This document shows, in pieces, positions 50,261 through 54,161 of a DNA stretch of 64,000 nt; within the stretch, counting starts at the first letter, position 1, and every line of letters starts with the position of its first letter. The notes below the pieces were generated by a model, which was given only the letters and a program-made list of their open reading frames with translations, did not search any database and had not been told where the DNA came from. This DNA is from Lishizhenia tianjinensis. GTDB taxonomy: Bacteria; Bacteroidota; Bacteroidia; Flavobacteriales_D; Crocinitomicaceae. The position numbers and the translations under genes are program-made. The DNA lies in assembly GCA_943330745.2 (NCBI GenBank), contig CALQIX020000013.1, positions 1 to 64,000 on the forward strand. The letters are read 5' to 3'.

Positions 50261-51142
50261 TTGGAACGCCGTAATTTTTTAGGATTGTCTGCTATGTCTA
50301 TCGCTTTTGCTTCTCTCACTAGTTTGAGATCTTTTTTTGACGAAAAGGAGAGGGGTAATGAAATTTTTCCGACCTTATTTGTTGGACACGGATCACCAAT
50401 GAATGCGATCGAACAAAATGAGTTTACACTTCAGTGGAAAAAAATCACTTTAAATTTTGATAAACCCAAAGCAATTATTTGTATTTCCGCACATTGGTTG
50501 ACGAAAGGAACCTTTGTTACTTCTATGGAAAGGCCAAAAACTATTCATGATTTTGGAGGGTTTCCACAACAATTGTTTGATGTTGAATATCCTGCGGTTG
50601 GATCACCTGACGTAGCTCATTGGGCGAAAGAAGCGGTTTCTAGTGCATCTATACAAGATAATTATGAATGGGGATTAGATCACGGCACTTGGTCTATTCT
50701 AAAAAATATGTATCCTGAAGCAGATATTCCGGTAATTCAGTTAAGTATCGATTACACCAAGCCATTGTCCTACCATTTTCAATTAGCACAAGAATTAAAA
50801 TCGTTGCGAAAAAAAGGAATACTAATTATAGGTAGTGGAAACATGGTTCACAACCTTGGAATGGTAGCGTGGGATAAAATTAATACGCCAGGTTTTGGGT
50901 ATGATTGGGTTTTAGAAATAGATTCAATATTTAAAGATAAAATAAGCAACAGAGATTTTCAATCTTTGATTAATTGGTCGGATTTGCACAAACAAATTTC
51001 GCTGGCAGTACCCACCTTGGATCATTATATTCCTTTGATTTATTCAGTTGGACTTAGTGAAAAACAAGATGAGGTTGCATTTTTCAATGATAAAGCGGTT
51101 GCTGGTTCACTCACAATGACCTCAGTTCAGTTTGGTATATGA
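50261..51142 (+). CDS. DODA/YgiD-type extradiol dioxygenase family protein, TTG start
   Basis: 293 aa, aromatic-ring-opening dioxygenase of the LigB/4,5-DOPA family. The metal-site residues are in FVGHGSPMNAIEQNEF (His), ICISAHWLTKG (His) and DHGTWSILK (His). The start is TTG at 50261; it yields ERRNFLGLSAMSIAFASL, a twin-arginine-type signal (RRNFL). Starting at the later ATG (MSIAFASL) would discard it. It would therefore be folded, metal-loaded and exported. It shares a four-base ATGA overlap with the CoA-transferase gene. The substrate is unknown. Confidence 0.85.
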   Translation: MERRNFLGLSAMSIAFASLTSLRSFFDEKERGNEIFPTLFVGHGSPMNAIEQNEFTLQWKKITLNFDKPKAIICISAHWLTKGTFVTSMERPKTIHDFGGFPQQLFDVEYPAVGSPDVAHWAKEAVSSASIQDNYEWGLDHGTWSILKNMYPEADIPVIQLSIDYTKPLSYHFQLAQELKSLRKKGILIIGSGNMVHNLGMVAWDKINTPGFGYDWVLEIDSIFKDKISNRDFQSLINWSDLHKQISLAVPTLDHYIPLIYSVGLSEKQDEVAFFNDKAVAGSLTMTSVQFGI

Positions 51143-52657: not shown

Positions 52658-52695
52658 ATTGTAAATAAAGAATTTTTCACTGAACCTTTTGTCGT

Positions 52696-52703
52696 TAGAT
52701 TTG
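52696..52703 (+). promoter_or_regulatory. -7 element of the MerR-type regulator gene
   Basis: TAGATTTG matches TAnnTTTG, 33 bases before the ATG at 52737. No convincing -33. Confidence 0.4.
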
Positions 52704-52736
52704 TTTGAGACATGTTATTAAGTGTGGTAGATAAAA

Positions 52737-53606
52737 ATGGCTGAATATAAAATCAAAGATTTAGAGGTTCTTTCTGGTGTAAAAGCGCACACCATTCGAA
52801 TTTGGGAAAAGCGGTATAATTTACTTTCACCGGATCGTACTGAAACTCAAATTCGTTTATATACAGACGAAGATTTAGTTATTTTATTAAATGTTTGTTT
52901 GTTATATAAGCATGGTGTTAAAATATCGCATATTGCGAATATGTCTTTTCCACAGATTCAAGCAAAAGTAATTGAAATTCAAGAGTCCTTTGATTTAGGT
53001 GATAGTTCGGAACAATTGATATTGGCTTTATTAACCTTAGATGAGGCTTTATTTCGCAATACCTTAGGTTCATTAATTGCTGAAGTTGGATTGATTAAAA
53101 CATTTTTAGATCATTTAATTCCATTTTTAGACAGAATTGGAATCATGTGGTTGGTCGGTACTATTAATCCTTCGCAAGAGCATTTTATTTCTAATCTTAT
53201 TCGCCAGAAAATAATTGCCGAAATTGATAAAATGCCGATTCCAGTTAACCTTGAGAATCCAATAATGTTGTTTTTGCCAGAGCATGAATGGCATGAAATA
53301 AGCTTGCTTTTTTATCAGTTTATTTTGCGTGAGAAGCAATTGCATACGGTTTATTTAGGACAAAGTTTACCCTTCAATTCTTTAGTAGAGTGTATTCACC
53401 AATTGAAGCCTTGTGCCTTGGTCACTTCCTGGTTGACTGCTGTTGAGGAAAATTTTATTGAGAATTATTTCAAACAATTAAAAGAAGAGGTGGGCAATAT
53501 TCCAATTTTGGCAGGAGGTTATCAAATTAAATCGAATAGTTCCCGCCTTTGTGAGTTGGTCGTTGAAATTGATACTGTAGAATCGTTGAGTACTCATTTT
53601 TCTTAA
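52737..53606 (+). CDS. MerR-family regulator with cobalamin-binding domain (CarH/LitR-like)
   Basis: 289-aa transcription factor. A MerR helix-turn-helix covers 1-80 (LEVLSGVKAHTIRIWEKRYNLL). Residues 85-165 form a helical bundle with W138-x9-E148-H149, the motif that caps adenosylcobalamin in CarH. The C-terminal Rossmann-type domain has E184-W-H186-x-x-S189, then 41 residues to S231-W-L233, then 26 to G260-G261. This is the DxHxxG-x41-SxL-x26-28-GG cobalamin signature with D to E and G to S changes. H186 would be the lower axial ligand. A light- and B12-controlled repressor is the inference. The next gene is bcp, and the gap contains a MerR-style operator. Confidence 0.88.
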   Translation: MAEYKIKDLEVLSGVKAHTIRIWEKRYNLLSPDRTETQIRLYTDEDLVILLNVCLLYKHGVKISHIANMSFPQIQAKVIEIQESFDLGDSSEQLILALLTLDEALFRNTLGSLIAEVGLIKTFLDHLIPFLDRIGIMWLVGTINPSQEHFISNLIRQKIIAEIDKMPIPVNLENPIMLFLPEHEWHEISLLFYQFILREKQLHTVYLGQSLPFNSLVECIHQLKPCALVTSWLTAVEENFIENYFKQLKEEVGNIPILAGGYQIKSNSSRLCELVVEIDTVESLSTHFS

Positions 53607-53699: not shown

Positions 53700-54161
53700 A
53701 TGACAGAATTAAAAACAGGAGATGTTGCTCCAAATTTTAAAGGAATAGATCAGAATGGTGATTCTATTGAGCTCGTTCAGTTTTTGGGGAAGAAAGTAGT
53801 TTTATATTTTTATCCCAAGGACGATACCCCAGGTTGTACTGCCCAGGCTTGTAACTTACGAGATAATTTAGCTGTGTTACAAACATGCGGGATTGAAGTT
53901 GTTGGAGTTAGTACTGATTCGATAAAGAGCCACTCAAAATTCAGTTCTAAATTTGAGTTAAATTTCTCATTGATTGCCGATGAAAACAAAGAAATAGTTG
54001 AACAATATGGTGTTTGGGGGTTAAAGAAATTTATGGGCCGCGAATATATTGGTACAAACCGCACAACTTTTCTTATTGATGAAAAAGGAATTGTTGAAGG
54101 AATTATTTCTAAACCAAAAACCAAGGCACACGCAGAAGAAATTTTGTCTTTACTAAAATAA
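53700..54161 (+). CDS. bcp: Thioredoxin-dependent peroxiredoxin Bcp (PrxQ)
   Basis: Reduces hydrogen peroxide and organic peroxides using thioredoxin; cytoplasmic, 153 aa. The peroxidatic Cys46 is in DDTPGCTAQAC with the probable resolving Cys51 five residues later, as in E. coli Bcp. Downstream VVGVSTDSIKSHSKF and LIADENKEIVEQYGVWG are conserved. It lies 93 bp after the MerR/B12 regulator gene with a structured promoter between them. About 73 bp further is recA. Confidence 0.95.
   Translation: MTELKTGDVAPNFKGIDQNGDSIELVQFLGKKVVLYFYPKDDTPGCTAQACNLRDNLAVLQTCGIEVVGVSTDSIKSHSKFSSKFELNFSLIADENKEIVEQYGVWGLKKFMGREYIGTNRTTFLIDEKGIVEGIISKPKTKAHAEEILSLLK

Follow-up and report, generated by a model that had tools for sequence, protein, structure and literature searches.

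Homologues of the cobalamin-dependent regulator CarH are spread over several phyla, and CarH operators consist of 11-bp direct repeats of the form nnnnTnnACAn, according to parts of PMC9304148. Thermus thermophilus CarH/LitR (5c8d, 5c8e and 3whp) combines a MerR helix-turn-helix, a four-helix cap and a Rossmann cobalamin domain, and its His132 provides the upper ligand of the light state. The H132A variant of this protein (TtCarH) was described as mostly tetrameric after light, with a disassembly that mostly fails, although an earlier report had disagreed (PMC10442372, in part). CtMerR of Chloracidobacterium thermophilum (8jbs, 8jbt), a protein of the CarH type and CarH-like fold that carries Arg at the place of His132, is reported to be light responsive and to pass from tetramer to monomer in the light (PMC11796333, in part). 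In Myxococcus xanthus, MerR-B12 repressors (CarA and CarH) act at a crt promoter, the ECF sigma factor CarQ takes part in the light response, and the anti-sigma factor CarR holds CarQ in a B12-independent pathway; CarA has lost the Trp of the Wx9EH motif (parts of PMC9304148). A light-induced pigment is reported from the flavobacterium Chryseobacterium lacus, where the regulator is unknown as far as the relevant part of PMC7064467 goes. In the open-licence literature, no description of such a regulator, operator, regulon or rhodopsin link was found for Bacteroidota; MerR is not mentioned in the relevant part of a Dokdonia rhodopsin paper (PMC3587595), nor 'Bacteroid' or 'flavobacter' in that of PMC12627116.

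The window analysed here is a stretch of 64,000 nucleotides from Lishizhenia tianjinensis (contig CALQIX020000013.1 of assembly GCA_943330745.2). It contains a gene for a CarH-like protein, the main features of which are as follows.

52737..53606, + strand: CarH-like MerR/B12 transcriptional regulator (ATG at 52737, stop at 53606, 289 aa)
52746..52943, + strand: MerR helix-turn-helix, residues 4-69 (Pfam), with the recognition helix R21-x-W23-E24-K25-R26-Y27
53010..53213, + strand: B12-binding_2 four-helix cap, residues 92-159 (Pfam)
53148..53183, + strand: W138-x9-E148-H149 (W131-x9-E141-H142 in CarH), residue 139 being Leu where CarH has His132
53286..53303, + strand: E184-W185-H186-E-I-S189, with H186 in the alignment column of His177, the CarH cobalt ligand
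53427..53519, + strand: S231-x-L233 to G260-G261, a part of the cobalamin signature (sequence and alignment)

The domain make-up and predicted structure both point to the CarH group. In Pfam, MerR_1 (PF13411) scored 54.9 bits against a cut-off of 21.6 and B12-binding_2 (PF02607) 32.2 bits against 23, and the Rossmann domain B12-binding (PF02310) reached 21.5 bits, below its cut-off of 32.1. The best solved relative is 3whp (E 7e-17), and the CarH equivalog NF052513 is the top NCBIfam match, with 82.5 bits below its cut-off of 400. An AlphaFold2 model, calculated from 61 Bacteroidota sequences (the window protein and 60 of 80 named loci), has a pLDDT of 92.3 and a pTM of 0.86, and Thermus CarH fills the first 28 Foldseek rows obtained with it. 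The first-pass annotation had proposed an overlay on CarH: the predicted cobalamin domain has the CarH fold and matches that of TtCarH with Z 19.6 and an rmsd of 2.1 A over 196 residues at 22% identity. Moreover, the recognition helix, RxWEKRY, differs by one letter from the RxWERRY of the group; R21, W23, E24 and R26 are invariant in the alignment of 132 rows described below, and residue 25 is K in 78, Q in 46, R in 7 and V in 1 of them.

The same annotation had recognised a nearly complete cobalamin signature, whose residues and spacings proved exact: W138-x9-E148-H149, which is the Wx9EH motif of the helical cap, then E184-x-H186-x-x-S189, 41 residues, S231-x-L233, 26 residues and G260-G261. 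It had also named free variation of H186 and the W-x9-EH residues among homologues as an outcome that would refute the photoreceptor proposal. Such variation was not seen in an alignment of 132 Bacteroidota rows, in which W138 is kept in 131, E148 in 131, H149 in 130 and H186 in all; this alignment includes about three duplicates (132 different of 135 sequences entered the tree) and omits six truncated or far rows (L027, L055, L059, L054, L056 and L057). Among 30 rows of the detached type found in the window genus, the four residues are kept in 29, 30, 30 and 30, respectively, and among 25 further rows, comprising order members together with L053, L056 and L057 of the window genus, in 24, 24, 22 and 24; the truncated or fragmentary loci L027, L055 and L059 were omitted from both counts. 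Apart from H186, His is frequent only at columns 149 (130 rows) and 183 (43 rows).

Several letters deviate from published signatures. The strict form D/ExHx2G/P-x41-SxT/V-x22-27-GG (parts of PMC9304148) is matched by the ligand His, the spacing and the GG of the window protein, which has S189 for G/P and L233 for T/V. The exchange of Gly for Ser had been regarded as the main doubt, which is not a strong one: the place of S189 (G180 of TtCarH) holds G in 78 and S in 44 of the 132 rows, G or P together in 80, and a disabling effect of Ser is ruled out by its being so common. Similarly, the light-responsive set used by SignatureFinder, namely GxxW, EH, GxxH and GxxxP (PMC11796333, in part), is represented by GxxW, EH and GxxxP, with HxxH in place of GxxH; among the 132 rows, 56 have G at the first place of this motif. 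Genes for a cob(I)alamin adenosyltransferase (PF01923) are present in 57 of 60 genomes, including that of the window. The Bacteroidota proteins likely bind cobalamin, judging from their sequences.

In a panel of 60 genomes that included the window genome, 54 had a homologue of the regulator at E 0.001 or better. The earlier remark that no carotenoid gene lies beside the regulator is true of the window; the genetic link itself is seen in relatives, and the window genome does have a carotenoid operon at another place. There, at G000:C1:58850-62605, an ECF-type sigma gene (170 aa) is followed by a crtI-like desaturase, a phytoene synthase, an idi-like NUDIX gene and, as the last gene of the operon, a 6-pyruvoyl-tetrahydropterin synthase (PTPS) gene; a photolyase gene lies about 21 kb away. 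Outside the genus, carH is found within approximately 3.5 kb of crtB (phytoene synthase) in 13 of the 19 order genomes having both, by hand comparison, and among the best 80 of 590 named Bacteroidota loci it is accompanied in 38 by a sigma gene resembling the one of the window genome, in 19 by crtB and in 8 by photolyase. Neighbours differ in the window genus, where 16 loci were inspected and named by eye: the neighbour is an engB-like gene in 11, several of which also have leuS- and yebC-like genes; in two the adjoining genes are RecN/GSCFA-like; and the other three (L001, L003 and L030) have a peroxiredoxin and recA. One genus member, G006, has the crt-linked type instead (L053). In a tree obtained by a quick method and with many open forks, the window protein and most genus members fall into a clade of support 98 with Fluviicola (carH followed by crtI) and a Crocinitomicaceae MAG (carH followed by sigma-crt), for which reason the unlinked arrangement appears derived. 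Since the window genome does have sigma-crtI-crtB, at another place and with two putative operators in the promoter, the absent carotenoid neighbour looks like a relocation, and on phylogenetic grounds the regulator gene seems to have moved away from the operon in most of the genus members seen. Two far MerR-B12 homologues of another genus member, G023 (L056 and L057), form a long separate branch and are possibly foreign or contamination.

Upstream of the sigma genes, an inverted repeat of 30 bp recurs, TGTTTAA-N16-TTAAACA, which is taken as the putative operator. It occurs three times in exact form in the window genome, where the reversed control has no match; two of these copies are in the sigma-crt promoter (C1:58773 and 58807) and the third, at G000:C5:31517-31546 (L138), is 49 bp before folE, the gene of GTP cyclohydrolase I. 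Of its two one-mismatch sites, the one on G000:C9 immediately precedes the start codon of an ORF of 141 aa that by eye is lipoprotein-like, and around the one on G000:C33 no ORF was seen among the closed ORFs listed; a two-mismatch scan of this genome was uninformative (77 matches against 139 for the control). There is no site of this type beside the window regulator gene itself. Of 33 sigma promoters, restricted to genes that tblastn matched nearly from the first residue, all 33 contain one or more copies scoring 12/14 or higher, and 29 contain two. The spacing is also specific: in the best 80 of 590 named loci (926 kb), N16 gave 43 exact copies in 34 loci and N17 gave 4, and every other spacing from 0 to 30 gave 0-1. 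The -7 box of Bacteroidota promoters has the consensus TAnnTTTG, and its overlap with the repeat is not main evidence because it is exact in only 8 of the 33 sigma promoters.

The site tends to occur together with the regulator. It was found in 49 genomes of the 60-genome panel, the reversed control occurring once in each of five. In a class survey of 296 genomes of at least 90% completeness, with the regulator called at E 1e-20, the site occurred in 151 of 198 genomes with the regulator versus 9 of 98 without it (Fisher p 7e-30, a value that, beyond the control, ignores kinship and base composition), and the counts of site and control were 300:27 and 9:4, respectively. The exact site is absent from 47 of those 198 regulator genomes and occurs in only 1 of 9 in family f21; the order members G043, G045, G053, G055, G058 and G059, only the first of which was in the survey, likewise have the regulator and no exact site. 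As for the reported CarH operators (parts of PMC9304148), the half-site TAAACA fits their TnnACA; only this half-site agrees, the arrangement being an inverted repeat with N16 instead of 11-bp direct repeats. By inference, the CarH-like protein would bind TGTTTAA-N16-TTAAACA.

In relatives, the contexts of the site (L134-L166 and L092) include sigma-crt, secreted FAS1/fasciclin proteins, rhodopsin, folE (two genomes), dxs (one genome) and others, with one site between fasciclin and photolyase genes; some of these are probably due to chance. Many aquatic relatives of the window organism carry rhodopsins, and 17 of 30 rhodopsin genes of Flavobacteriales (L141, L143, L144, L151 and L247-L276; 30 of 34 matches taken in, one with only 61 bases upstream) have an N16 site of at least 13/14 within 300 bp upstream, which is 84-90 bp before the ATG in 11 of the 17. 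Across control spacings of 6-26, three such scores occurred at N17, two at N8 and none at others. Among fasciclin genes (30 loci taken, four without a usable ORF), 18 of 26 have a site (L134-L137, L140, L142, L146, L156 and L286-L306), and in 16 of these 18 the distance from its right half to the ATG is 2-16 bp, with 2 bp in 10; the spacing control gave high scores at N9 in 9 of the 26 and at N8 in one. The rhodopsin genes, like the FAS1 genes, are related to one another by descent and do not constitute independent evidence, and neither family was found in the window genome. The two genomes with a folE site belong to different families (L138, and L162 as named by eye); folE and the PTPS gene of the crt operon could place a pterin route, perhaps for a photolyase antenna, in the same switch. 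At L152 (G051), a gene named by eye as dxs, for the first enzyme of the MEP isoprenoid pathway, starts 2 bp from the site.

Taken together, the regulator is probably a CarH-like, B12-binding dark repressor that acts in trans on sigma-crt and folE and is released by light. The analysis itself shows its domain make-up, predicted fold and pocket conservation, the site with its spacing and its placement at the sigma-crt promoter, and the co-occurrence of site and regulator. In the dark, an adenosylcobalamin-loaded oligomer would sit on TGTTTAA-N16-TTAAACA at the promoter of sigma-crtI-crtB-idi-PTPS and on the one folE site and keep these genes off. Light would break the Co-C bond and make the oligomer leave the DNA, upon which the carotenoid and pterin genes would come on, with photolyase perhaps following via the sigma factor. 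The regulator gene, having left the operon in the window genus, would exert this control in trans. Compared with Thermus CarH, which it resembles in architecture, in the equivalents of W131/E141/H142/H177 and in having carotenoid genes as likely targets, the system differs in its inverted-repeat operator, in its unlinked regulator gene and in a sigma gene that heads the putative target operon; like the Myxococcus xanthus system, it would combine a MerR-B12 repressor at a crt promoter with an ECF sigma factor, but here the sigma gene is itself preceded by the putative operator.

The residues of the switch are where the comparison with TtCarH becomes less close. The place of His132 is taken by Leu139, and it holds Leu in 62, Gln in 48 and His in none of the 132 rows. 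The dimer contact Arg176-Asp201 is replaced by Trp185-Ser210 (Trp in 57 and Leu in 46 rows at the former place, Ser in 101 and Asp in 3 at the latter), and Gly192 corresponds to Gln201, with Gly in 107 of the 132 rows. With His132 and the Arg176-Asp201 pair replaced in this manner, the textbook photo-switch of CarH cannot be assumed. The missing His is not fatal to a light response, since CtMerR with Arg at that place still monomerises in light, and light may plausibly act by a route other than His132, by analogy with this protein; the CtMerR residue differs from the mostly Leu or Gln of the Bacteroidota rows, and identity in the structural alignment is 16%. The original proposal of a CarH-like photoreceptor is partly supported, namely by its architecture, the conserved pocket, an adenosyltransferase in the genome and putative carotenoid and rhodopsin targets; the textbook switch is not among the supported points. 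The score below the equivalog cut-off, the strict signature letters, the absence of His132 and an operator without direct repeats place the protein, by sequence, in a Bacteroidota branch of CarH-like regulators and outside CarH proper.

An adenosylcobalamin-binding repressor of the same genes might instead sense B12 or the redox state of cobalamin, with photolysis leaving the oligomer intact when His132 is missing. This is unlikely, if still to be reckoned with: the lack of His132 in 132 of 132 rows and the mostly tetrameric TtCarH H132A after light (PMC10442372, in part) speak for it, whereas the carotenoid operon and rhodopsin genes among the putative targets, as well as the light-responsive CtMerR with its Arg (PMC11796333, in part), speak for light.

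It is distinctly unlikely that a different protein, for instance the ECF sigma factor encoded beside carH, reads the repeat as a -35/-10 pair and that the MerR protein only co-occurs with it. N16 is a usual ECF spacing, and a sigma gene adjoins carH in 38 of the best 80 of 590 named loci. On the other hand, the halves are inverted copies of each other, and a promoter reading fits poorly with a right half that can reach up to the start codon, too close for a -10 box at the 16 fasciclin genes and at some sigma genes (about 2-4 bp before the ATG). In addition, the site separates carH from crtI in two Fluviicola loci, where a sigma gene is lacking at this position, and the half-site fits the CarH pattern (parts of PMC9304148). 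A regulator of the CarA kind, no longer dependent on B12 and working through protein partners, is very improbable: the deviating signature letters (S for G/P, L for T/V) and the different dimer contacts would suit it, but the Trp lost in CarA (parts of PMC9304148) persists in all but one of the 132 rows, the ligand His in every one of them, and the genome has an adenosyltransferase. Finally, a chance resemblance of an unrelated MerR protein, for which only the low identity to TtCarH (22%) could be cited, is refuted by MerR_1 and B12-binding_2 scores above their cut-offs, the match to 3whp, the CarH fold and a pocket kept across the 132 rows.

Beyond the probable light-released dark repressor of the window genome, it is tentatively proposed that a separate Bacteroidota branch of B12 photoreceptors may act as a master dark repressor, with a 30-bp inverted-repeat operator and a switch without a bis-His state. 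Its regulon might comprise carotenoids, an ECF sigma factor, pterin and isoprenoid supply, secreted fasciclins and perhaps photolyase, and rhodopsin of the proton-pump type in many aquatic Flavobacteriales. If this is true, vitamin B12 would relay light to switch on rhodopsin phototrophy, and a light response without His132 would bear on the workings of CarH-type switches. A candidate repressor, an exact site and a target list make the light induction of pigment and rhodopsin testable in cultivable species.

A second, different element precedes the regulator gene.

52682..52705, + strand: 5' element GAACCT-N13-TTGTT, 31 bp before the window ATG; genus consensus GAACAA-N13-TTGTT

The window copy, GAACCT-N13-TTGTTT, is imperfectly kept and scores 9/11 against the consensus; of 39 distinct regions upstream of detached genes, 36 match it at 10 or 11 of 11. 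High scores numbered 41 at spacing 13 when all regions were counted, and no other spacing from 6 to 21 exceeded 8. ECF promoters consist of a -35/-10 pair, and the element is more promoter-like than palindromic since, in 30 tabulated rows, the left G is kept in 29 and TTGTT is followed by A or T and never by C. As a guess, it may be a candidate ECF-sigma promoter, and a cascade could be imagined in which the regulator acts on the sigma factor, and this in turn on photolyase and on the regulator gene itself. The idea of sigma targets is weak, as the element precedes some photolyase/cryptochrome genes and is missing before many.

The first-pass annotation had pointed to a peroxiredoxin next to the regulator.

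53700..54161, + strand: Bcp-type peroxiredoxin gene, downstream neighbour on the same strand, which also adjoins carH in L003 and L030

Its product is 94 and 62% identical to the carH-adjacent copies in L003 and L030, respectively, and 35-43% identical to crt-locus copies; it is thus closer to the former. In two sister loci (L066, 3843-4295; L072, 5512-5964), photolyase is immediately followed by another peroxiredoxin of the Bcp type, a diverged one, and a redox role is no more than a possible reading of the window gene. Elsewhere in the window, an ORF at 50261-51142 resembles, by eye, a DODA-type extradiol dioxygenase and lies upstream of a CoA-transferase gene, CaiB/BaiF-like by eye, and a GNAT gene.
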